From contig NC_041020.1 of assembly GCF_004193775.1 (NCBI RefSeq), forward strand, positions 50,199,097-50,263,096: 64,000 bases of DNA, given 5' to 3'. Origin of the DNA: Glycine soja (taxonomy: Eukaryota; Streptophyta; Magnoliopsida; Fabales; Fabaceae). Shown here one piece after another: positions 23,602 to 48,837 of this stretch (the first letter of the stretch is position 1; each line of letters opens with the position of its first letter). The translations under genes and the position numbers were made by a program. The notes under the pieces are model-generated. The model saw only the letters and a program-made list of their open reading frames with translations, was not told the DNA's origin and searched no databases.

Positions 23602-25371
23602 TTATCCACGCCTGGGGCGCACTTTGACGGTGAGAGGGTTAGCCATTTCACTAGAGAGCTTCAGCACCTCCGTCAGATCAACACCCTTCTCATCAGACGG
23701 TACCCATTCGAACTCATGCAAGAGCGACGCCACCCAAAAGTTCACCGTAGCCCATCCAAGAGTCTTCCCTGGGCACGCTCTCCTACCCGACCCAAATGGA
23801 GCAAGTCTTGGATCCGACCCGAGTATCGAAAATTCGGCATCTCCACCCGCAGTGACAAACCTCTCGGGCATAAATTCGAGTGGGTCCTTCCACACGTGTG
23901 GGTCCCTGCAAATAGCCCACATGTTGACCATAGCAGTGGTCCCCGCAGGTACGTGATACCCATCAATGGTCGTATCATTGATGGACAAGCGGGCCCATGA
24001 TAGAAGTGGGCCCGGCGGGTGCAGCCGCAGCACCTCCTTCACCACCGCTGGTAGGTACGTCATCACTGCCACGTCATCCTCTGCGACGGCGCGTGCTTTT
24101 CCGACAACTGCATCTAGCTCCTCTTGAACTTTGGACTGCACATGAGGATGAAGCGCCATCCTCGCGAGTATCCACTCTATCAAAACCGCTACCGTGTCCG
24201 TTCCTCTGAATATCATTTCCTGAAAAAAACAAAATAAAATTGCACAAATGAAAAAACATTTTAGTGCCACCTCCACTCACCACTTCCGCTTTCTCAATTA
24301 TTCTCATTAACATTTTTCCCTCCCACACTTGGACCAATGGAATTATTCTCAAAATTAAGCGTGTCACACTAGAGTAACAAAATGCCATTACACTAGGATA
24401 AAATTGATTGAACTTACCCAAAGTACAGCGATCATGTCGGAGTCTGATAATTGATCAGGTTCCGGGAGAGAGAGCAAGACGTCAACAAAATCACGATTGG
24501 TTTCGGTTTTACTAGCTCGGTGTTCAGCGATGATTGTGCCGACGAAACGGTTCACCATGGGGACGAGGTTGGAGCACCTGAACCGGATATTTTGGGCGTC
24601 GAAATGTGCAAGAAAAGGAAGGTGGTCGGCCCAATTAAACAGGCCCAACAGGTCATAACCTTGGTCCACTAATATTCCAAGGTCTTCCATTCCGCTGTTT
24701 GGGTCGTGCAGCTTATACTCTTGTCCAAACACGGAGCACATCATGTTACTGAGCGAAGCCTTTTTCAGCACTTGGCGAACACGTAAGCTGCGGTGGCGCT
24801 TGTTATTTAGGATGTGAACCATTTGGGCGGCGATTTGAGAGCGTTGGAGCTCAGAGGCTTTTATCTGGCGGGGGCAGAAGAAGTGATTAGAGGCGATTCT
24901 CCTGAGGCTTCGCCAGTAAACTCCGTAAGAGGCGAAGCCGATGGCGCGGTTAAACATGAGGCTGTATGCGGATTCTTTGACGGGACGATCGGCGAAGACG
25001 GAGCTGTTGAGAATCTCCTTGGCCACGTCGGGGTGGCACGTGACGATGACACGTGTGTCGCCGAGACTAAAGGCCATGAGGCGCTTGGCTCTGCATGTGG
25101 CGGCCGCGGCTGCGATACGGTGATGGGCCAGGGAAATCATGAGGCCCATGCTTCCAATAAGAGGGAAGCCTTTGGGACCGGGAATGATTGAAAGGGGGGG
25201 AGAGTAGGTGTAGTACTTGCCCCAGGCAGGACCACCGGGGTGTGACCAGTAATAGAAAGTCATGGTTAACCAGAGTGAGCCCATGATCAAAAGGACCCAT
25301 GCAAGGTTTTCTTGGGTGCATTTCGAGGTCAGGGCTATTATCCAGAGGTTGTCGTCAATGTGGCTTGTCAT
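23602..25371 (-). CDS. CYP78A: Cytochrome P450, CYP78A subfamily
   Basis: Exon 1 is 25371-24418 and exon 2 is 24219-23602, separated by a 198-bp phase-0 GT-AG intron; the product is 523 residues, normal for CYP78A. Visible landmarks: N-terminal membrane anchor (about 20-45), Pro-rich hinge with [14 protein letters not shown]-helix oxygen-binding FRGTDT (322-327), K-helix ExxR (E380-R383, in [11 protein letters not shown]), FMPERF (434-439) and the haem loop [11 protein letters not shown] with Cys467. The FRGTDT helix and the [14 protein letters not shown] loop point to CYP78A, the KLUH group of ER monooxygenases that promote organ and seed size through an unidentified mobile signal. Which CYP78A paralogue this is cannot be told by eye. 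A TATA box lies about 55 bases upstream. No lesions are seen. Confidence 0.93.
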
Positions 25372-25425
25372 GGTGGGAGGGATAGTGCTTCAGTGAGTGC
25401 CAAATATTGCACAGGTTGCTTTGGC

Positions 25426-36355: not shown

Positions 36356-36364
36356 TTTTTAGTA
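36356..36364. repeat. Left target-site duplication of the MULE
   Basis: TTTTTAGTA, identical to 47377-47385. Nine bases is the standard Mutator duplication length. Confidence 0.92.
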
Positions 36365-36435
36365 GGGAGTTGCTACGTGCACCCAGCATTATTGCTGGGG
36401 CACCCAGCAAACAGTGAAGTGGCAAAATTGCCCTT
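36365..36435. repeat. Left terminal inverted repeat of the MULE
   Basis: It pairs with 47305-47376 with few mismatches over the outer ~45 bases and weaker matching beyond. Within it the unit GTGCACCCAGCA, or a close variant, recurs in both orientations around an ATTATT core, so each end carries several copies of the same possible transposase-binding word. Confidence 0.9.
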
Positions 36436-36440
36436 CAATA

Positions 36441-36602
36441 ATTCTTCTTCCGGAAGAAGTATTTCCGTAAACTTTTCGGAACAAGCTTTTCCGGAAAAAG
36501 ACTTCTTCCGGAAAAAGAATTTGGGAATTCCGGAAGTACTCACAAACTTCGTCCGGAAGATCGTCATCCGGAAGTTTCCGGAAGAAGGTTCTTCCGGAAC
36601 TG
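36441..36602. repeat. Subterminal CTTCCGGAAG palindrome array, left outer cluster
   Basis: About eight CCGG-centred palindromes, mostly TTCCGGAA with flanking C/G or A, lie in ~160 bases just inside the left terminal repeat. The same word fills the clusters at 36957-37378 and 46699-46987 and appears as no comparable cluster elsewhere in the window. Confidence 0.9.
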
Positions 36603-36956
36603 AACTTTTTTTAAAAAAAAAATTAAATAATATTTAATGCGTATGTAATGACGATTTTGCCCTTATGTAATTTTCTTTAAATTAACGCGTAAACGCTTCT
36701 TTCTACTGCGCTTTCGCTTTCTTCGCTTCTTTTTACTGCCTTTCGCTTTCTTCTACTTTGTTTCTTCCGGTTGCTTTGTTTCTTCCGGTTGCGCTTTCGC
36801 TATTTTGGTGTTCTTCCGGTTGCGCTTTCGCTATTTTGGTGGTGGTCCCGTGAAGTATTTAGAGATTCGGTGGTCCCGTGTTCGGTATTTGAAGTTTTGT
36901 TAGTGGCTGTTCTTCCTATTTTGTCGGAGGTACGCTTTTATGGGTATTTTTTTTCT

Positions 36957-37378
36957 TTTCCGGAAGAAAAGTAGTAAAAAAAATGTGTATGCGGAAGAAA
37001 TTTTAGGCACTGACGCCTTTTCCGGATGAAGTGTTGCCGGAAAACACATCCGGAAGACCGTCTTCCGGAAGTTTCTGAGGCCTATTCCGGAAGAAGTGGT
37101 TCCGGAAGTGTCTTCCGGAAGCACTTCTTCCGGAATGGGCCTCAGTGACTTCCGGAAGACCTTCTTCCGGAAGTTACTGAGGCCTATTCCGGAAGAAGTG
37201 CTTCCGAAAGACACATCCGGAACCACTTCTTCCGGAATAGGCCTCAGTAACTTCCGGAAGAAGGTCTTCCGGAAGTCACTGAGGCCCATTCCGGAAGAAG
37301 TGCTTCCGGAAGACACTTCCGGAACCACTTCTTCCGGAATAGGCCTCAGAAACTTCCGGAAGACGGTCTTCCGGAAGT
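36957..37378. repeat. Subterminal CTTCCGGAAG palindrome array, left inner cluster
   Basis: By eye about 22 CCGG-centred palindromes are embedded in larger units that alternate orientation, with GAGGCC(T/C)ATTCCGGAAG and its reverse complement as landmarks. The middle (about 37096-37328, centre near 37212) is close to a perfect large palindrome: translating either strand gives almost the same peptide. It could form strong hairpins in DNA or RNA. It lies upstream of the transposase gene, so it may be part of its promoter region or leader. Confidence 0.9.
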
Positions 37379-37539
37379 GTTAAATTATTAGATTTTTTTT
37401 TATTTATGTTTTATAATTTATATATATATATATATTTGTTTAATAATGGATTATTTGTTTAATTAGGTATAATGGTATATATTGTGGACATTAAAATTTA
37501 TAACAATAAAATTCATTTAATAATTTTTTTGTTTTATAA

Positions 37540-37540
<1 letters not shown>

Positions 37541-37606
<66 letters not shown>
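37541..37606. repeat. (TA)n microsatellite inside the MULE
   Basis: About 65 bases of TA repeat between the palindrome arrays and the transposase gene. Confidence 0.9.
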
Positions 37607-37607
<1 letters not shown>

Positions 37608-37908
37608 CTGTTTTATAATTTTTTGTATTTCTGTTTTATATATGTTGTGGATAATTTAATTAGGTATAATGGTATAATATTAAATGATTTAGGTAACTTA
37701 AATGTATAATGGTACAAAAATGTTTTATTAGTTGTTTATTATAGTGATAAGTTTAGTTTAAGTAAATAATGTAGTTATAAATTTAGAATATAGTCGTGTA
37801 TGATGCATATGTCCTATTAATATGTTTGTTATTTAAGGTGTAGTAAATTTTTGGATGTGGTTATATGATAATTTGAATGTACTTGTGTATGATGCATATG
37901 TCCTTAAG

Positions 37909-40888
37909 ATGGACGAAGATCAATGGAGGTATGACTTTGCGATGTCACAAGAAGTTCATATGGATTATGATTATGATAATCAAGAAGAATGTGGAGTGAA
38001 TGAACCACATGTCGATTGTTCAAATGCTTTTAATACATCTCAGGTAATCATAGATAATTTGAGTCATTGGTTGAATTGATGGTTTGTATGAAAATTAATG
38101 TGTTAGGGTTGCGTTGTAGGTATTCGCTACTCGAGATGATGTTTTGCAATGGGCTCGAACAGTTGCCCATGAAAATGGATTTGTTGCAGTGATTATGAGA
38201 TCTGACACAGAGACCGGTAGCAGAGGAAGAAGTTCATTTGTGTTAATTGGGTGTGAAAGGAGTGGTACGTACAAGTGTAGAAATAAAGAATTCGTTAGAA
38301 AAGACACCGGGAGTAGGAAATGTGGTTGTCCCTTCAGGCTTCGTGGGAAACCAGTGCGTGGAGGGGAAGGTTGGATGGTGAAGTTGATCTGTGGGATTCA
38401 TAATCATGAATTGGCGAAGTCCTTAGTTGGACATCCATACGCCGGGCGATTGACTAAGGAAGAAAAGAAAATTATTGCTGATATGACAAAGTCGATGGTG
38501 AAACCGAAAAACATCTTGCTAACGTTGAAGGAACACAATGCCGACAGTTACACCACGATAAAGCAAATTTACAATGCAAGAAGTGCATATCGTTCTTCAA
38601 TAAGAGGAGCTGATACCGAAATGCAGCATCTGATGAAGCTTCTCGAACGTGATCAATACATTCATTGGCATAGATTGAAGGATGAAGTTGTGGTGCGTGA
38701 TCTGTTTTGGTGTCACCCAGATGCAGTAAAGTTATGCAATGCATGTCATCTGGTGTTTTTTATAGACAGTACCTACAAAACAAACAGGTACAGACTCCCA
38801 CTACTTGACTTTGTTGGAGTGACACCAACGGCGATGACATTCTCTGCTGGGTTTGCATATCTGGAGGCTGAGCGTGTTAATAATATTGTATGGGCTTTGG
38901 AACGATTTCGAGGCCTATTTTTAAGACACGATCGCCTCCCTCTTGTTATTGTCACTGACAGAGACCTAGCACTGATGAATGCAGTGAAAACTGTGTTTCC
39001 CGAGTCTACTAATTTGTTGTGCAGGTTTCATATCGATAAGAATGTGAAGGCGAAGTGCAAATCTTTAATCGGGGAAAAAAATGTGTGGGACTATGTAATG
39101 GATAACTGGGGTACTTTGGTTGATTGTCCGTCCGAATACGAGTTCCATGAGTCACATCAGAAGTTTCAAGTTGCTTGTTCGCCTTGGCCGATGTTCGTTG
39201 ACTATGTTAACGACACATGGATTATCCCCCACAAGGAAAAATTTATTACAGCATGGACGAATAAGGTCATGCACCTAGGCAACACAACAACAAACAGGTA
39301 TTAACAACTGATTTTATTTGTTAGTAACGATTAATATTAAATGGTATTTAATTGTTGTATATTTTCATGTTTGTTGTGTATTTTAAATGTAGGGTTGAAT
39401 CAGCTCATTGGGCTCTCAAAAGAGTACTACAAAATAGCGTTGGAGACCTATGTAGTGTTTGGGATGCCATGAACAACATGATCACGCTGCAACACGTCGA
39501 AATTAAAGCATCCTTTGAAACCAGTACGCATGTGGTTGGCCATGTATATAAAAAAACCTTATACAAGAGGCTTCTTGGGATGGTTTCGAGGGATGCTTTA
39601 AATCAGATTGCTTCTGAGATTGATCGTCTACGTTATCTCGGCAACAATCTCTATTCTTGTGGTTGTGTGATGAGAAGCACGCACGGGCTTCCTTGTGCAT
39701 GTGAGCTTTCTAGGTATACTGCTAGCAGCATCCCATTAGAGTCAGTCCATCTTTTTTGGAGGAGACTTTGCTTTTCAGACCAAGGGTTATGTGAGACGGA
39801 AGTCACCATCAAGGAAGAAATAGAGGTTATATCTAAAAGGTTTGATGAACTTGATGTGGCTGGCAAAGTAAATCTGAAGAGTAAACTTCGAGAAATCGCA
39901 TACCCTGATCATAACTCTATGTGCCCTCCTCCATCAAAGGTGAACACTAAAGGTGCACCGAAGAAACCGATGAAAAGAAGTCAAACATCCACAAAGCGTG
40001 ATCCGTCTTACTGGGAGTATGTTGATGCTTTTCATTCTGTTCAAAGCAGCAACTCTCCAGTGAAACGAAGTGCATCATGTTCTCAACCGCGTCAGCCAAC
40101 AAGGATCATCCCGATGTTGGATCAATTTGCGTCATTCTTTCAAGGTTTCATTCGTGACGTTGTGGATGTGAAAGCGGACGGTAACTGTGGATATCGGTCC
40201 ATTGGCGCTTTATTAGGTATGGGGGAAGATTCGTGGCCGTTAGTGCGTAATGAATTGCTTAAAGAACTTGGCAGGTGGTCGCATGAGTATATGAACCTCT
40301 TCGGTGGCACAGAGAGATTTGAACAATTAAAGTTGTCCCTACTTGTTGATGGATTTTCAAAGGTATGTTTTTAGGTTAATTTTTTTTAATAACAATGTTT
40401 AAATTACTTACATGTGTATGTTTGGTTCATTCAGGTTAGTGTGGACAAGTGGATGGATATAACAGACATGGGATATGTGATTGCTTCACGGTATAACGTA
40501 ATCCTTGTATCGTTGTCCCAACAACAAAGCATGACATTTTTCCCTCTTAGAAGTCAACCACCACCTGACTCTTCTGGCCACCGCATCATATGTGTCGGTC
40601 ACGTGTTTGGAAATCATTTTGTTCAGGTACATTGAATATAGTTAGTGTAACAATTATGCAATGACTTCGCTTGTTCGTTTGGCACGGTCAGCGCATGATA
40701 TAATGTTTGTTCATGTACAACAGGTTTATTTGAAAGACCATTGTCCGTTGCCGCCCCCAGCGCTGTTGTGGTCAACCAATTGTTATTCTCAGGCAAAGCA
40801 ATGGGCAATTCCATATATTAGTAGAATGCAGGAATACACAAGCTTGATGTCATTCAAAACACACTATGTAGACCTAAATGAAGACTAA
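37909..40888 (+). CDS. MULE transposase fused to an OTU cysteine-protease domain
   Basis: Exons 37909-38043, 38120-39297, 39393-40362, 40435-40626 and 40724-40888, all GT-AG and in frame, give 879 residues. Domains in order: acidic start MDEDQWRYDF; FAR1/WRKY-GCM1-type zinc finger (about 89-142; CRSGTYKC-like start, KCGCPFRL, ending GIHNHEL); MULE DDE nuclease with Asp261 in FFIDSTYKTN, Asp325 in IVTDRDLA and probable Glu440 in TTNRVESAH; SWIM-like finger (about 527-543, CGCVMRSTHGLPCAC, where the usual final His is Cys); a basic linker; then an OTU domain with ADGNCGYRS (Asp700, Cys703) and GNHFVQ (His822). OTU proteins cleave ubiquitin or similar chains; here it may protect the transposase or act on host chromatin proteins (inference). 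An in-frame ATG-less stretch precedes the chosen start. The gene is intact. Confidence 0.9.
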
Positions 40889-41329
40889 ACATTCATTGTT
40901 TATTTATTTGTATTCATTATGCGATATAATTCGTTGTAACCCGTCACTAACCAATTAATATTATCAACTACTCGTTTGGTTAAGCAAGGAAATTGTTGGT
41001 CCAACAAAAATCATTTACAGCATACATCATTGTCATAATTGACAACACATAATGACATGCATGCGTGTTACAGTTTGAGCGTGACAACACATTGGTTGAC
41101 TTCAGTACACATTTTGAAACTAGCAGTCGCTCAACAACACATTGGTTGACTTGACTACACATTAGCGACAACACATTGGCTGACTTGACTACACATTTAC
41201 GCGTGTCTATTTTTTTGTAAACAAAGTTAAACAAAGGCTCGGTCACAACCATCTATATATATGGCAGACTAGGCTACTAAATCACACATTATCTTGCTTT
41301 CAAATAATCTCCCAACTGATACACAAACT

Positions 41330-42151
41330 ATGGCATTTCTAGGAGAAACTAGCAGTCAGACGATTGTCAACTCAAGGTTGGCTTTCATTTATCCAAATGG
41401 ATCGATTATTCACAATGATACTGGGGTTTACTTCCAAACTTCAACTCCGATGCCCATTCGAGTACCAAATAGGTGTGATTTTGCAAGCCTAAAAACCAGA
41501 ATACACAATACCCTTCAGCTATCCGACAAACAATTTTTGGATGAAATTCACTACCGGAAGCCATTCACCGATACAGGTAACCAAATTCGCTTTGAGTGTA
41601 TCAAATTGATAAATGATGACGATGTCAACACAATGTTAATGTGTAATGATCAATTTTCTTGTGTTGGTCCGATTGAGTTATTATGCACCGTTGGAAGAAC
41701 ACCAGATGGAATAATAAACTTACTTGAACGCACTATGCCTCGTATTCATGACGCGATCCTGTATTACAACGGCAAATGGAACATGCCACCGCAGAACAAA
41801 TTTGTTGGTTGCGCGTTCACAGGAAAAAATCCTAAGAAATTTCAAATTCCTTCAACATGTACCATCGACGAACTGAAGAATTTAATCAAGCAAGTTGCAC
41901 CTAAAGGGATCCCCCCTCTTGGAATTCACGAATCACAAACGGTAAGACGATTGTTTTTCCGCCAACCAGCTCGGTTTGAGTATTCAGATACGGTTATAAA
42001 ATATGAAATAAATGAGCTGATCACCAACGAAGAACTGCTGAAGGTGTTAGTACAATCTAACTACTGGAAAAAATATGGACCAATAGAAATTTTAGCTGTC
42101 TTTACTAAATATGTTGAAGACGAGGTCAGTGGGACGTCGCTAAACAACTGA
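41330..42151 (+). CDS. MULE-borne protein with two ubiquitin/PB1-like modules
   Basis: The single-exon frame runs from ATG 41330 to TGA 42149-42151, 273 residues. The first ~35 bases of the open frame before that ATG have no ATG of their own. Two modules of about 100-120 residues resemble each other. Module 1 (about 18-120) has FIYPNGSI, CDFASLKTRIHNTL, IHYRKPF, a DDDVNTML stretch and GPIELL. Module 2 (about 142-262) has LYYNGKW, CTIDELKNLIKQV, LFFRQP, TNEELLKVL and GPIEIL. The pattern of a basic/aromatic start, a helix with LK--I and an acidic DDD/NEE stretch recalls PB1 or related ubiquitin-like interaction domains; this is my reading, not a proven assignment. It lies about 440 bases downstream of the transposase on the same strand and could play the accessory role that a second gene has in some MULEs. 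It could bind the OTU domain or ubiquitin; function unknown. Confidence 0.75.
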   Translation: MAFLGETSSQTIVNSRLAFIYPNGSIIHNDTGVYFQTSTPMPIRVPNRCDFASLKTRIHNTLQLSDKQFLDEIHYRKPFTDTGNQIRFECIKLINDDDVNTMLMCNDQFSCVGPIELLCTVGRTPDGIINLLERTMPRIHDAILYYNGKWNMPPQNKFVGCAFTGKNPKKFQIPSTCTIDELKNLIKQVAPKGIPPLGIHESQTVRRLFFRQPARFEYSDTVIKYEINELITNEELLKVLVQSNYWKKYGPIEILAVFTKYVEDEVSGTSLNN

Positions 42152-42270
42152 ATGTCATGTTTAATTTTTTGTTTTTTTGTTGATGTAACCTTTATATGTT
42201 TACGGCGTGTTTAATTCCCATAATAAAGTTGAATGCGTTGTTTCAGTGGTCCAAAAATTTAATTGTTAAA

Positions 42271-43230
42271 AGGGTTCATTTCGTAGTTTTTTGGATTTTG
42301 AGACTTTGTTTTGACGTGTTAGTTGACGGAACTGGGGAACGGGACTATTTTTTTTGGATTCTTTGACGTCCAAACATGAGAAATGGCCGCCCTCCATTGT
42401 CTCAGGGCACAGGCACACCCACGCAAAAAAATCCCAAACATGGGTACTTGAACATGGAAAAAGGGTTCATTTCCTATTTTTTTGGATTTTGAGGTTTTGT
42501 TTTGACGTGTTAGTTGACGGAACTGGGGAACGGGACTATTTTTTTTGGATTCTTTGACGTCCAAACATGAGAAATGGCCGCCCTCCATTGTCTCAGGGCA
42601 CAGGCACACCCACGCAAAAAAATCCCAAACATGGGTACTTGAACATGGAAAAAGGGTTCATTTCCTATTTTTTTGGATTTTGAGGCTTTGTTTTGACGTG
42701 TTAGTTGACGGAACTGGGGAACGGGACTATTTTTTTTGGATTCTTTGACGTCCAAACATGAGAAATGGCCGCCCTCCATTGTCTCAGGGCACAGGCACAC
42801 CCACGCAAAAAAAATCCCAAACATGGGTACTTGAACATGGAAAAAGGGTTCATTTCCTATTTTTTTGGATTTTGAGGCTTTGTTTTGACGTGTTAGTTGA
42901 CGGAACTGGGGAACGGGACTATTTTTTTTGGATTCTTTGACGTCCAAACATGAGAAATGGCCGCCCTCCATTGTCTCAGGGCACAGGCACACCCACGCAA
43001 AAAAATCCCAAACATGGGTACTTGAACATGGAAAAAGGGTTCATTTCCTATTTTTTTAGATTTTGAGGCTTTGTTTTGACGTGTTAGTTGACGGAACTGG
43101 GGAACGGGACTATTTTTTTTGGATTCTTTGACGTCCAAACATGAGAAATGGCCGCCCTCCATTGTCTCAGGGCACAGACACACCCACGCAAAAAAATCCC
43201 AAACATGGGTACTTGAACATGGAAAAAAGA
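42271..43230. repeat. Five near-identical ~191-bp tandem repeats
   Basis: The word AGGGTTCATTTC starts copies at about 42271, 42462, 42653, 42845 and 43036, with a decayed sixth start near 43227. Spacing is 191-192 bases and copies differ by only a few bases. Each unit has T-rich tracts, GTGTTAGTTGACGGAACTGG and GGCCGCCCTCCATTGTCTCA. Shorter imperfect pieces of the unit continue to about 43445. The array sits exactly between the 3' ends of two convergent genes. Long open frames on both strands here are repeat artefacts, as 191 is not a multiple of three. Confidence 0.95.
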
Positions 43231-43627
43231 TTCATTTATGTAATTCTTACAAACAAAACTCATGATTCTAAAAACTTATGTTTTTTATGTAATTCTTACA
43301 AACATGGAAAAAGGGTTCATTTATGTAATTCTTACAAACATGGGTACTTGAACATGGAAAAAGGGTTCACTTATGAATTATTAATCATTTTAAAAACTTT
43401 TATTTTTTATGTAATTCTTACAAACAAAACTCATGATTCTAGGTTCCCTTTTTTTAAAAATAAATTTAAAACAACCGTAAACTTCGCTTAAGGGCCACAA
43501 ACAATCGGAATAACAAACTATATTATAAAATAATAAACTGTGCAAAACACGTCAACTATATTAAACAAAAACTGTAATAATTACAAATATTCATGTCAAC
43601 TACAACACAACAAAATAAATACAATGA

Positions 43628-45677
43628 TCAATGGTCCGTGCGGCGTCTCTGACGAGCCCTGACCGTCCCATCAGCACTGGGTCCCCCTCTCGCGATCGTC
43701 AGGCAGTCCTGCATAATGTCATATAACTCTGTGCCTGCAGTGACTATCCTAAGGTTGAGCACACGCTCCAACCTCTGTGCAATCGCCTCATATCCCTCGT
43801 AATCATCCTGTCAAAGTCAGTAAAAACATTTATTATGAAATTCAAAATAAACAGCAACTCATAAAACATTAAACGCGCAAATAATCTTACCACATATGGA
43901 GGGGGGTCAAATGCCACTGGAACCTGGGGGCTGGGCGGCTGTATGTAGTCCTCAGGGTCTGCAGCTGGTGCATCCCTCTGCTGGTCAGCTGCCTGGGTCG
44001 GTGTCATGAAAGGGTGAGATATGCGGAAAAACCACTCAATGTAATCTGCAGATACCTGCCCAGGCACTAAACAAGGCTGACCCGCAGGTAGTAAGTGATC
44101 CGCAAACTCCATCCACCTGTCATCTATCTGATCCTGTGACAATCGTGCACTAACAGGCGGTGGAGGGATGCTCTGGATGTAACCGAACTGGCGTACCACC
44201 CTCTCCGGTCGAATTGCGACGATCATAGGACCCCATCTGAGCTGACCCTGGAACGATGAAATCTCCTGAAACGCCCTAACACCCCGATGCTCCGTGTACG
44301 GCAACCAGGACACATCTGTGACGGTCAAACCATCACAACGTGCCCTGTAGGGTGCTCCTGTGATGCCCTTCATGTGCGCCTTCGACGTCAACCACCGGGA
44401 AGCACGTGGGGACGTCTCCTGGTATGTGTCGTCAGTCACGCACTGATGCACACTAGGGAAGTGCTCATAGATCCAGCACTACACAATAATTGAGGTTAAC
44501 ATAACATAAAAACATGTTTAAATCATAATCGAACCTAACATATTAATAAACACAAAATTTACCTGAAATAGCGTCAAGTACCCCGCAAGCTGTCGGGTGG
44601 TGGTCCTACAAGCCTCATCTAACTGGTCGTACATATGAACCAGCGCGGCAACCCCCCAAGCGTAACCACCACTATGAGCGAGGTCCCGGAAAGCGTCAAG
44701 GTGGACCACATGCACGTATGTTGCACTCTTATTAGCAAAAAGAGTGCAACCGACAAGGTGCAGCAAATAAGCGCGAGCTGCGACAATCCACCGCCGGGCC
44801 TGACATCTGGTCTCATAAATGTCACGAACCCATCCTAATCGTACATATGCTCCACGTGTGAGCGCTGTCTCGGCTCTGGCCTCCTCCGCAGACACTTCCA
44901 GCAACTCCGTGAGCAAGAATCTGGCCTCCTCCGTAGAAAGAGCGTGGAAACTGTGCAAGGCGCCAGTGATGGGCAAATGTAGAATGGACGACACATCATC
45001 CAATGTGATCGTCAGCTCTCCTACTGGAAGGTGGAAGGTGCTAGTCTCACTGTGCCACCTTTCCACAAATGCGGATATAAGTCCAGGATCGCCAGTAATA
45101 ACTGAACAATCTATCAGTGGACTTAATCCTGTGGCAGCCACCAGGCCTTCAATCTCAGGCACTGGCCTCCCAATCAGTGTCAGCTTCCTCCCATGTGACA
45201 CTAACTTCAAATCAGGACGTTCCTGATTTGAAGTACAAATTATACAATTATTAAAAAAAAATTAATCATAAACAAATAAATAAACAATGACAAATAATTA
45301 ACAAATTAAAATACCTGTCCACTCCACACGGCATGTGCAACATGCTCGGCAAATGATGTGAGCACTGACGGGTCACGTGGACCACCAGGGAATCCCTCTG
45401 CAGCATCATCACCATCTGACCCCTCACCACTATCAGCACCCTGTGCGTCCGCACGCATCTCAGGTGCCTCCGTAGGCTGCTCAGGAACATCATCAGTCAT
45501 GTCAGCGACGTCCTCAGCCATATCACGTCCCTCCGTAGTCATCTGATGAACGCGTAGCCTACGGGCTGAGGCAGTAGGCCTACGCCTCTCGGGAACATCG
45601 CCAGCATCCTCGTCAGCAGCTCTATCTCTGCCTACAACTCTACCTATGGCACGACCTAAACCTCGTGTTCTGGCCAT
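43628..45677 (-). CDS. Plant Mobile Domain (MAIN/MAIL1-type) protein carried by the MULE
   Basis: Minus-strand exons 45677-45315, 45222-44563, 44478-43891 and 43807-43628 (TGA) join in phase 0 throughout to give 596 residues. Residues 1-121 are a basic then acidic disordered leader starting MARTRGLGRAIGRVVGRDRA. The PMD follows: GRKLTLIGRPVPEIEGLVAATGL, SAFVERWHSETSTFHLPVGE, TITLDDVSSILHLPITG, then YLLHLVGCTLF, YAWGVAALVHMYDQLDEAC, LAGYLTLFQCWIYEHFP and SWLPYTEHRG. These are the hallmarks of the family often annotated as PP7 long form or MAIN-LIKE. The Arabidopsis relatives act in the nucleus on heterochromatin silencing and genome stability. There is no phosphatase domain here. Exons are clearly GC-richer than the transposase exons, hinting at a separate origin. 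The frame is intact. Confidence 0.88.
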
Positions 45678-45769
45678 GATCTGTAAATCATGTCGAACAC
45701 GTATTTTTTTCGGTCAAAATATACACAATTTTCTTTATAAAAAATCAACTTTATTTATAAACAAATAAG

Positions 45770-46530
45770 ACTAACTTAAATCAAATTATTTTCACACATA
45801 CACGACCTAATTTTAAAAAAAAAATTAAACAACTTCATTTATATAAAAAAAAACAACTAATGTAAAATAAAATTATTAATAAACATGCACAACTTAATTT
45901 TTTTTAAAAAAAATTAAACAACTTCATTTATAAAAAAAAAAACACAACTAATATAAAAATAATTCATTACTAAACATCCACAACTTAATTTTTTAAAAAA
46001 AATAAACAACTTCATTTATAAAAAAAAAACACAACTAATGTAAAAAAAATTAATTAGTAAACATCCAACTCTTAATTTAAAAAAAAAAATAAGAAACTTC
46101 ATTTCTAAAAAAAAACACAACTAAATTACTTAGTAAACATCAACAAGTTAATTTTTTTAAAAAAAAAATAAACAACTTCATTTATAAAAACAAAACACAA
46201 CTAATATAAAAATAATTCATTACTAAACATCCACAACTTAATTTTTAAAAAAAATTAAACAACTAATGTAAAAAAAAAATTATTTAGTAAACATCCACAA
46301 TTTTTTTAGTAAATAAAATACTTCATTTATAATAAAATAAACTAATTAATTATAAAAAATTAGTATTTTTATAAAACTTCCAAAACACACAACTTTAATT
46401 ATAAAAATAGACAACTTCATTTTTAAAGAAAAAACACTAATTTAAAAAAAAACAATAAACAAAAACAAACACAACTACTTTTATAAAAAAAAATTAATTT
46501 ACAAATTAATATTTAGTAAAAATACACAAT
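45770..46530. repeat. A-rich degenerate tandem repeat, unit ~60-70 bp
   Basis: Repeated blocks of the form AAACAACTTCATTTATAAAAA, CACAACTAAT and ATTACTAAACATCCACAACTTAATTTT recur about ten times with drift. They lie just upstream of the PMD gene, so they may contain or follow its promoter; no TATA box can be singled out in such A-rich DNA. Confidence 0.75.
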
Positions 46531-46698
46531 TTAAATTATAAAAAAAATATGACATCAAAAACCCAAACTTCATTTTTCATAAAATCTAAAAAACAAAATA
46601 ACCAAAATAAATAAAATAATTCATTTAAAAAAAAAACAAAACAATTTCTGTTTAAAAAAAATTTTAAAAAAAAAACACAAAAAAAAAACAAAAAAACC

Positions 46699-46987
46699 AC
46701 TTCCGGAAGAAGTGGTTCTTCCGGAAACACTCCGGAAGAAGGGTTCTTCCGGAAAGGTCTTCCGGAACTTTGAAACTTCTTCCGGAAGTGCGCGTCTTCC
46801 GGAATTCTTCCGGATGAACCACTTCTTCCGGAAAGTTCCCGGAAGACGTTTTCCGGAAGTCTTCCGGAAGAAGTGTTCTTCCGGAAGACGTTTGGTTACT
46901 TCCGGAAGAACACTTCTTCCAGAAACTTTCCGGAAAACGTTCTTCCGGAACTTCCGGAAGAACCCCTAACGGGTCTTCCGGAAGACT
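46699..46987. repeat. Subterminal CTTCCGGAAG palindrome array, right cluster
   Basis: About 18 CCGG-centred palindromes occur in ~290 bases, the counterpart of the two left clusters. The order is not a simple mirror of the left arm, so it arose by separate amplification of the same word rather than as part of a long terminal inverted repeat. Confidence 0.9.
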
Positions 46988-47304
46988 CCGTCGTCAGCCA
47001 TTTCCCCATTTTTTTCAGCGTCTCCTGCTCTCGTCTTCTACCCTACGGTTCCGCTAACCTAAGGTTCTTCTAACCTACCCTAAATGCTACAACTACAGTG
47101 CATAATAAAAGCAAAGGGAAGATTAGGGACACCTACCTCGAACGGAAATGGCGTCCAACCGAAAGAAGCAGCACCTGGGCTCGCGATGAAGGAGAAGGCT
47201 CGCGGAAGAGGTATGCAAAGGAAGAAAAGCAGAAGCAAGAAGAAGGCTTAGTGATTCCGGGAGAGGAGAAGAAAACTATTTAAATATTTTAAACTTTTTT
47301 AATG
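46988..47304. other. Right subterminal region of the MULE
   Basis: Mixed sequence between the palindrome array and the right terminal repeat, with GAAGAAG-rich stretches. An open frame at 47098-47283 has no family resemblance and is not called. Confidence 0.4.
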
Positions 47305-47376
47305 AAGGGTAAAATGGTAGTTTCAATAAATTGCTGGGTGCACCAGCAATATTGCTGGGTGCACCTAGCATATCCC
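47305..47376. repeat. Right terminal inverted repeat of the MULE
   Basis: Reverse complement of 36365-36435. It contains two direct copies of TTGCTGGGTGCACC and ends TAGCATATCCC. Confidence 0.9.
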
Positions 47377-47385
47377 TTTTTAGTA
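47377..47385. repeat. Right target-site duplication of the MULE
   Basis: TTTTTAGTA, identical to 36356-36364. Confidence 0.92.
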
Positions 47386-47958: not shown

Positions 47959-48797
47959 TTAGGACCAGAAGTCCCACCATTGATAATCACAGCTGGTTGG
48001 TTGACCTAAGATATCATCGGATTCTAACACACCCCAATCTTCTGATGATGTCAAAGAACCATCAACATGTTCAACAAAGTTCAGCTGGGCAGGTTCATCT
48101 TCCATTTCAAAGTATTGTTCTGCTTTTATGCTGCGGTCACATTCCCAGAGAACACCAACAATGTGTTGTGATCTTTCTATTGACGTGTTTGACTGCTTTA
48201 CCTCTTGTTCACTTTTCATAGTTGTCGTTTCACTCTCCGTGCTGTTTGCTGCTTTGTATCCTGTAGTACAACTTTGAGCTTGTTCTAGTGGCTTTTGTAT
48301 TCTATCATCCAGTTCTTGCAACTGTTTGAAAATTGAAACCATAATCATTAGCCTCTAATAGGGAAGTAATAATGGATTTGAATAGTAAACGCCTCTAATA
48401 TAATGAAATGTTTTATATAATTGGATAAATACGCTAGTCCAACCTAGAAACTTAGGAACAATTAATTATGTGTTAATTGCAAGTATCTTATTCACCTGTG
48501 TTGGCAATGATTGATGCTCCTTGTTCAGAGCATCAAATTGTTATAGCTGGCTCGAAGTATGGTGTAGTCTCGTTGAAGCCGCTTTGACTTCCATCGAGCC
48601 CTCTTGTTTTGGAACCATATGGCAACCTGTCTTGGTTGCAACCCAAGCTCTCTTGCCAACTGCAATTTCTTTGTGGGTTCAAGTCTTGCGTCTGCTTCAA
48701 ATATGGATTCTAATGATTTGATTTGTTCATCATTCAACCTTCTTTTATTTTTGCTTGGCATGGGAGTTCCTATCATGAGTGAAATTTCCAATTGCAT
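47959..48797 (-). pseudogene. HD-Zip class I gene (ATHB7/12-like) with frameshift in the zipper
   Basis: Exon 1 is 48797-48496 and exon 2 is 48321-47959, with a 174-bp GT-AG intron. Exon 1 encodes a full homeodomain: [38 protein letters not shown] and [16 protein letters not shown]. The zipper starts (ILRASYNNL) but hits a stop at 48525-48527. In the next frame [14 protein letters not shown] continues the zipper and joins exon 2 (LQELDDRIQKPLEQ) in phase. The leucine spacing suggests a ~13-base deletion between two TTTG words. Exon 2 encodes an acidic tail ending QWWDFWS, typical of the stress- and ABA-responsive ATHB7/12 clade. As it stands the product is about 90 residues: a homeodomain without a working dimerisation zipper or activation tail. 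It could be a pseudogene, a young null allele or a sequencing error. Confidence 0.82.
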
Positions 48798-48837
48798 TTG
48801 TTGCTTTATACTCCAAAACTCAATGGGCCTGGTTTAA

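Follow-up and report, generated by a model that had tools for sequence, protein, structure and literature searches.

A 64,000-nucleotide stretch of Glycine soja DNA (contig NC_041020.1; hereafter the window) contains, at positions 36365–47376, an 11,012-bp Mutator-like element (MULE) with three uninterrupted genes: a transposase (gene 1), a predicted tandem PB1-like protein (gene 2) and, on the opposite strand, a plant mobile domain (PMD) protein (gene 3). Its features are collected in Table 1. The termini, GGGA...TCCC, were read directly in the sequence and are bounded by two perfect copies of the 9-bp target site duplication TTTTTAGTA, as a first, sequence-only reading had stated; both marks of a MULE, a target duplication of 8–11 bp (here 9 bp) and terminal inverted repeats, are present. 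The repeats are imperfect, with 60 identities over 78 aligned columns and 89% identity in the outer 47 nt. The same reading had found them but given them as about 71 bp, and they are about 78 bp long and about 77% identical. Its unbroken reading frames also stand, but not its count of eight splice junctions: there are seven introns (gene 1 has four, gene 3 has three), each of them GT-AG, and none of the three genes has an internal stop.

Table 1 Features of the element and its insertion site (positions in the window)
Feature	Position	Strand	Basis
Left copy of 9-bp target site duplication TTTTTAGTA	36356–36364		sequence; flank-joining search
Left terminal inverted repeat (GGGA...), TGCACCC at 36378	36365–36442	+	60 of 78 columns identical to right end
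Left subterminal array, 24 TTCCGGAA palindromes	36443–37381		motif counts
Inverted repeat inside left subterminal array, 164-nt arms (99%)	37043–37206 / 37218–37381		
Gene 1, MULE transposase, 879 aa	37909–40888 (exons 37909–38043, 38120–39297, 39393–40362, 40435–40626, 40724–40888)	+	spliced model, Pfam
Gene 2, single exon, 273 aa, two tandem PB1-like domains	41330–42151	+	predicted structure
Tandem repeat between genes 2 and 3, period 191, 5.1 copies	42268–43237		repeat scan
Gene 3, PMD protein, 596 aa	43628–45677 (exons 45677–45315, 45222–44563, 44478–43891, 43807–43628)	-	spliced model, Pfam
Right subterminal array, 15 TTCCGGAA	46701–47000		motif counts
Right terminal inverted repeat (...TCCC), two TGCACCC	47299–47376	-	alignment with left end
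Right copy of 9-bp target site duplication TTTTTAGTA	47377–47385		sequence; flank-joining search

Neither the terminal repeats nor TTTTTAGTA is decisive singly, because the score of the repeat alignment was equalled by one of 2000 random pairs of window stretches of the same length, and TTTTTAGTA occurs seven times on the plus strand and once on the minus strand of this AT-rich window. A chance origin of the ends is, however, ruled out because other copies have the same ends in different flanks. When the joined flanks were compared with the genome, the only matches were two separate halves at the window locus, which overlap by exactly the 9-bp duplication. A homoeologous empty site, sought in the same genome with the joined flanks, was not found, which is uninformative for other accessions. 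No second copy of the three proteins was found in the window (E up to 1e-3).

Copies elsewhere in the genome were sought with a 101-nt probe from the 5′ end; scoring covered 40 of 650 candidates, and the counts are therefore lower bounds. At least 45 matches were obtained, at least 17 of them (the window element included) identical over all 101 nt. Twenty other copies, the first in the match list, were fetched. Two of these, L017 and L018, are a local duplication with a common left flank (C10, about 37.455–37.479 Mb), so the set represents at most 19 independent insertions; L018 continues into a second partial transposase. Both ends were read in nine copies, and seven of these have exact 9-bp duplications; L028 has one of 8 bp and L011 has none. 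The sequence beyond the right end of L011 (read in L034) is the left target duplication of L009, which lies on an unplaced contig, and this suggests a misjoin or misassembly, or an (ectopic) exchange.

Scored by the window exons, 18 of the 20 copies have a complete transposase and 11 an open one, and gene 2 and the PMD gene are open in ten each. In L013 the PMD gene extends past the fetched stretch and also has length changes. All three genes are open in L012 and L024, which have exact 9-bp duplications elsewhere in the genome. The mean pairwise difference is 0.66% for the transposase (17 sequences), 1.1% for gene 2 (12) and 1.3% for the PMD gene (14), in sets that include the window and exclude copies in which the gene is incomplete or of altered length (4, 9 and 7 of the 20, respectively). 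At a substitution rate of about 6e-9 per site and year, these differences correspond to roughly half a million to a million years. The element is thus structurally complete, with three open genes, and from a recently spread family, and the original description of a complete, recent MULE with three intact genes was borne out.

These data bear on the possibility that the open frames have survived by chance, in a dead relic or in a gene cluster domesticated by the host. At least one gene is broken, missing or cut off in 18 of the 20 copies, and the window insertion is common to another G. soja assembly (see below), as such an explanation would have it. The two further fully open copies, however, differ from the window transposase by 11 (L012) and 6 (L024) of 2640 nt, and their introns, compared together with 20 nt of flanking exon at either end, show a difference of 0.2–0.4% from those of the window; a domesticated gene, moreover, would be expected to hold its position and lose its ends. 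A relic or domesticated cluster is therefore considered very improbable.

The protein of gene 1 contains the MULE transposase domain PF10551 (3.4e-21, above cut-off). Its N-terminal finger matched PF08731 (AFT) with 22.9 bits against a cut-off of 21.6, whereas the match to PF03101 (FAR1), at 18.9, was below the cut-off of 28.1; among 30 relatives, at E up to 0.1, FAR1 was matched in 19 and AFT in 23. Stretches starting at residues 258, 322 and 437 resemble what we take to be the MULE DDE signatures, and a CxC...CxC stretch is present at residue 527. No SWIM match was found in Pfam for the protein or the 30 relatives.

The C-terminus of gene 1 appears, by motif alone, to be ovarian tumour (OTU)-like, the stretches DGNCGYRS and GNHFVQVYL being those that we take as the OTU-like motifs. 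Three hits, all of them weak, came from a profile search of the PDB. An unrelated envelope glycoprotein ranked first (E 0.29); the other two (E 0.3 and 1.2) were viral polymerase chains, which we presume to be OTU domains, and in the one with a displayed alignment the match falls at the DGNC motif. This assignment has to be set against the finding of no OTU match in Pfam (30 relatives; three fragments) or NCBIfam, and against a structure model that was unusable (predicted local distance difference test score, pLDDT, of 36). No relative was found when viral contigs were scanned with gene 2 and with one transposase exon. OTU is not mentioned in the available passages of a study of soybean FRS genes (PMC13026280).

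The product of gene 2 models as two PB1 folds (ubiquitin-like beta-grasp), the characteristics of the PB1 fold being found in the predicted structure. The top Foldseek rows were ubiquitin-like domains of USP7, in long, loose alignments, and the PB1 reading does not rest on them. Against PDB sequences there was a single unconvincing match (E 0.11). Gene 2 is thus described as encoding a tandem PB1-like protein on the strength of its model. The product of gene 3 contains the PMD domain PF10536 (5.6e-56), and the gene lies on the minus strand, antisense to the transposase.

The coherence of the three-gene set was examined in more distant relatives. Among the 120 best of 578 transposase protein matches, 50 were gene models continuing into gene 2. 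From a search with a diverged gene 2 protein (141 matches listed from 2365 candidates), six diverged loci with an open gene 2, 66–92% identical to that of the window, were selected and their surroundings fetched. The sequence-only reading had held that the unit would not be coherent if the three genes never occurred together in other copies; here an antisense PMD gene was found behind gene 2 at all six loci and a transposase in front of it at five; at the sixth, L035, the 3.8 kb read contains none. Between subfamilies each of the three genes is under purifying selection, as shown by the ratio of non-synonymous to synonymous change (omega) against the window, which was 0.18–0.35 for gene 1, 0.20–0.37 for gene 2 and 0.12–0.37 for gene 3, values based only on columns with at least 50% local identity, which lowers dN, and, for PMD, on dS above 1 and near saturation. 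The three genes form an old and coherent unit, and the burst that spread it is young. The organism names given among the best 120 rows of each of the three protein searches were all Glycine, many rows of one search bearing no name.

Several results from within the young burst weigh against the reading proposed below. Changes in the transposase look neutral (omega 1.06, p 0.65) and the constraint on gene 2 is not significant (omega 0.74, p 0.19). Omega for the PMD gene is 0.54 (p 0.0005), and 0.30 between the window and L012, but the former fades to 0.70 (p 0.07) when the mosaic copies L012 and L026 are left out. Gene 2 is lost or reduced to a 25-aa remnant in five of the 20 copies (L014, L015, L016, L021 and L028), and three of these, L014, L016 and L021, nevertheless have an open transposase and PMD gene and their own target duplications, so gene 2 is dispensable in cis. 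In L014 its place is taken by 747 bp of foreign DNA, the first 70 bp of which are the gene 2 remnant; the inserts in L015 (367 bp) and L016 (454 bp) are parts of the L014 insert at 99.8–100% identity. As these three copies are at different sites with their own duplications, the lineage must have moved after gene 2 was lost. In L021 gene 2 was replaced by a different sequence of 1377 bp. The replacements are at L014:4915–5591, L015:2154–2520, L016:4772–5225 and L021:4774–6150.

Such losses and replacements would be expected if genes 2 and 3 were passenger cargo of host origin on a one-gene MULE, like that of a Pack-MULE, with no role in mobility, and in the accessible part of one study (PMC5418596) MULEs are believed to have captured PMD genes. 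Passengers would not, however, show the retention and omega values found at the diverged loci, although these loci were picked for an open gene 2 and the column filter and dS saturation affect the ratios. It is therefore improbable that both genes are mere cargo.

The two halves of the element appear not to have the same history. L012, with 11 differences from the window in 2640 nt of transposase, has 38 in 1791 nt of PMD, and many of these PMD variants are common to L026. At four-fold sites the PMD gene is more diverged than the transposase in all five subfamily loci that have both genes. CpG decay was considered as the cause of this higher silent divergence and is unsupported at non-CpG sites, where the PMD excess persists, with small numbers (39–85 PMD sites per locus) and no formal test. 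Trees of eight sequences, built with the column filter used for omega and without L035, which offered no transposase, grouped L036 with L039 (support 94) and L037 with L040 (99) for the transposase plus gene 2, and L036 with L037 (100) for PMD. Each data set rejects the tree of the other (approximately unbiased, AU, test: p 0.0008 and 6e-16). These conflicting trees therefore point to module exchange, implying recombination between the left and right halves of the element.

The ends of the element contain dense arrays of a short motif. All 39 TTCCGGAA in the window sit in the two ends of the element (24 + 15), where base composition predicts 0.57 in 64 kb. In the 20 near-identical copies, the region from the left end to the start of the transposase holds 8 to 29 TTCCGGAA. 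Of the diverged loci, L038 has ten in its 3′ stretch and six in as much of its 5′ stretch as was read. No TTCCGGAA is present in what was read of L036, L037 and L039, which carry ACGGAAG/CTTCCGT instead: four and six in L036, seven in the 3′ part of L037, and one and six in L039. The 5′ stretch of L040 has seven ACGGAAG/CTTCCGT and 13 CGGAAG/CTTCCG in all, with none in the 3′ stretches read, and L035 has no array motif in its 3′ stretch. The core common to the arrays of the subfamilies is CGGAAG, and the flanking letters vary by subfamily. L037 and L039 carry array motifs with terminal repeats unlocated, and the 2 kb upstream of L039 has no match to the window ends.

In the sections available of two papers (PMC10398659, PMC5735166), the targets of the VANC proteins are likewise short motifs in arrays that grow, shrink and vary from one subfamily to another, and by this resemblance the CGGAAG arrays are candidate protein targets. 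Alternatively, the arrays may have arisen as by-products of gene conversion or replication slippage in palindromic sequence, or may give rise to hairpin RNA that silences the family. The variation in motif number (8 to 29) among near-identical copies, and in the longest hairpin arms (14 to 182 nt by copy, with a lax script), would fit these origins; the persistence of array position and CGGAAG core in subfamilies whose 5′ ends are alignable in parts only, with different motif flanks, would not. Such an origin is a serious possibility, if not the one that we favour over protein targets.

A second motif, TGCACCC, is found at six places in the window; three are in the terminal repeats and the rest lie outside the element. 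The looser YRCACCCR is less telling, with 16 occurrences in the window, three in the terminal repeats and six elsewhere in the element. TGCACCC is present within the first 78 bp of all 20 copies, which were selected by their 5′ ends, and also in both of the diverged left ends that were located, those of L036 and L040. In yeast, Aft1 has been linked to TGCACCC, and Aft2, the protein matched by the profile, to ACACCC, in the passages available of PMC6250833. We hypothesise, by analogy, that the AFT-like finger of the transposase reads the TGCACCC boxes in the terminal repeats.

Taken together, these results suggest a mechanism of cut-and-paste transposition of the DDE type with a 9-bp staggered cut at the target. 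Gene 1 is the transposase: its AFT/FAR1-type zinc finger would bind the TGCACCC boxes of the terminal repeats, its RNase-H core would cut and join DNA, and its OTU-like tail might act on ubiquitin. The tandem PB1 protein of gene 2 could be an oligomerising partner or a scaffold, and the PMD protein of gene 3, a domain also present in the host MAIL1/MAIN pathway, might counter host silencing. The subterminal CGGAAG arrays would be sequence-specific landing sites for an element protein. The roles other than that of the transposase, and any activity of the element today, we infer. That this is a complete, potentially autonomous Glycine MULE which has moved recently, with gene roles and landing-site arrays as proposed, is given a probability of about 0.8.

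A bolder extension is that the system is modular: a PMD counter-silencing module and the CGGAAG arrays would co-evolve and be reshuffled against a less diverged transposase-plus-PB1 module, while the transposase reads TGCACCC with the finger type and site preference of Aft1/Aft2. This is speculative and, as a whole, unlikely. If true, it would mean that living transposases have a DNA code in common with a family of transcription factors whose presumed origin lies in such transposases.

The surroundings of the element also show that more than one assembly carries the insertion. In a different assembly of G. soja, the gene model P0121 matches the neighbouring HD-Zip gene, the flank (47604–47536), the right end of the element (47215–47132) and then PMD, the PMD part being 100% identical to gene 3 of the window; as it spans flank, right end and PMD, the insertion is present in at least two assemblies. 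The neighbouring gene, at 47959–48809 on the minus strand, is one that we assign to the HD-Zip family, and the right end of the element lies about 0.58 kb past its stop. The frame appears shifted in the leucine-zipper part, a stretch that the model from the other assembly skips. On the minus strand at 23605–25389 are two long open stretches that resemble what we take to be a cytochrome P450 gene.

Some of these features have precedents. Plant MUDR, MUDRAVI2, MDR and MULE-Solanaceae_1 have 9-bp duplications and a transposase with an antisense PMD gene (Dupeyron et al. 2019, PMC6446971, as far as the paper was available). In Table 1 of that paper the antisense-PMD groups (42 and 47–50) share the 9-bp duplication and antisense PMD with the window element, and group 42 also has an unknown open reading frame (ORF) with its antisense PMD. 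These groups are listed there with SWIM, CCHC or C2H2 fingers, FAR1 being given only for two Phytophthora members of group 50; the ovarian-tumour domain is listed for none of them, an ovarian-tumour gene appearing only in a cnidarian element. The table mentions no tandem PB1 protein or motif arrays, whereas the window element has motif arrays and a predicted tandem PB1 protein. Groups with FAR1 are entered there without PMD. The Jittery group in the table has an FAR1-type N-terminus, as the window transposase may have, but a single ORF and no PMD, whereas the window element has three genes.

MULEs with PMD have been described in grasses and Amborella, together with PMD capture and a possible anti-silencing use (Ikeda et al. 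2017, PMC5418596, in the text accessible); their PMD is part of a fusion with the transposase, whereas the legume element described here encodes it in a gene of its own on the antisense strand. VANDAL21/Hiun of Arabidopsis, which has VANC, is likewise a multi-gene MULE with dense noncoding arrays of a short motif (PMC5735166, PMC10398659, available passages), but the VANDAL motif is YAGTATTAY and that found here is of the CGGAAG type. In the literature covered (titles, starts of abstracts and passages, with most subscription papers outside coverage), the element, its arrays and the domain combination were not found. Thus antisense PMD in MULEs is already published, and the tandem PB1 identity, the domain combination, the subfamily-specific arrays and the exchange between halves are unreported in that literature.

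Glycine annotations name many such transposon proteins (hits P0121–P0360) as host genes, among them FAR1-RELATED, PKS-NRPS hybrid synthetase and MAIN-LIKE, and this naming bears on gene-family studies. With near-identical three-gene MULEs in soybean, some of them fully open, the role of PMD inside transposons becomes directly testable, and copies that differ in their arrays, or in whether gene 2 is present, provide a natural comparison for how a plant transposon meets silencing.
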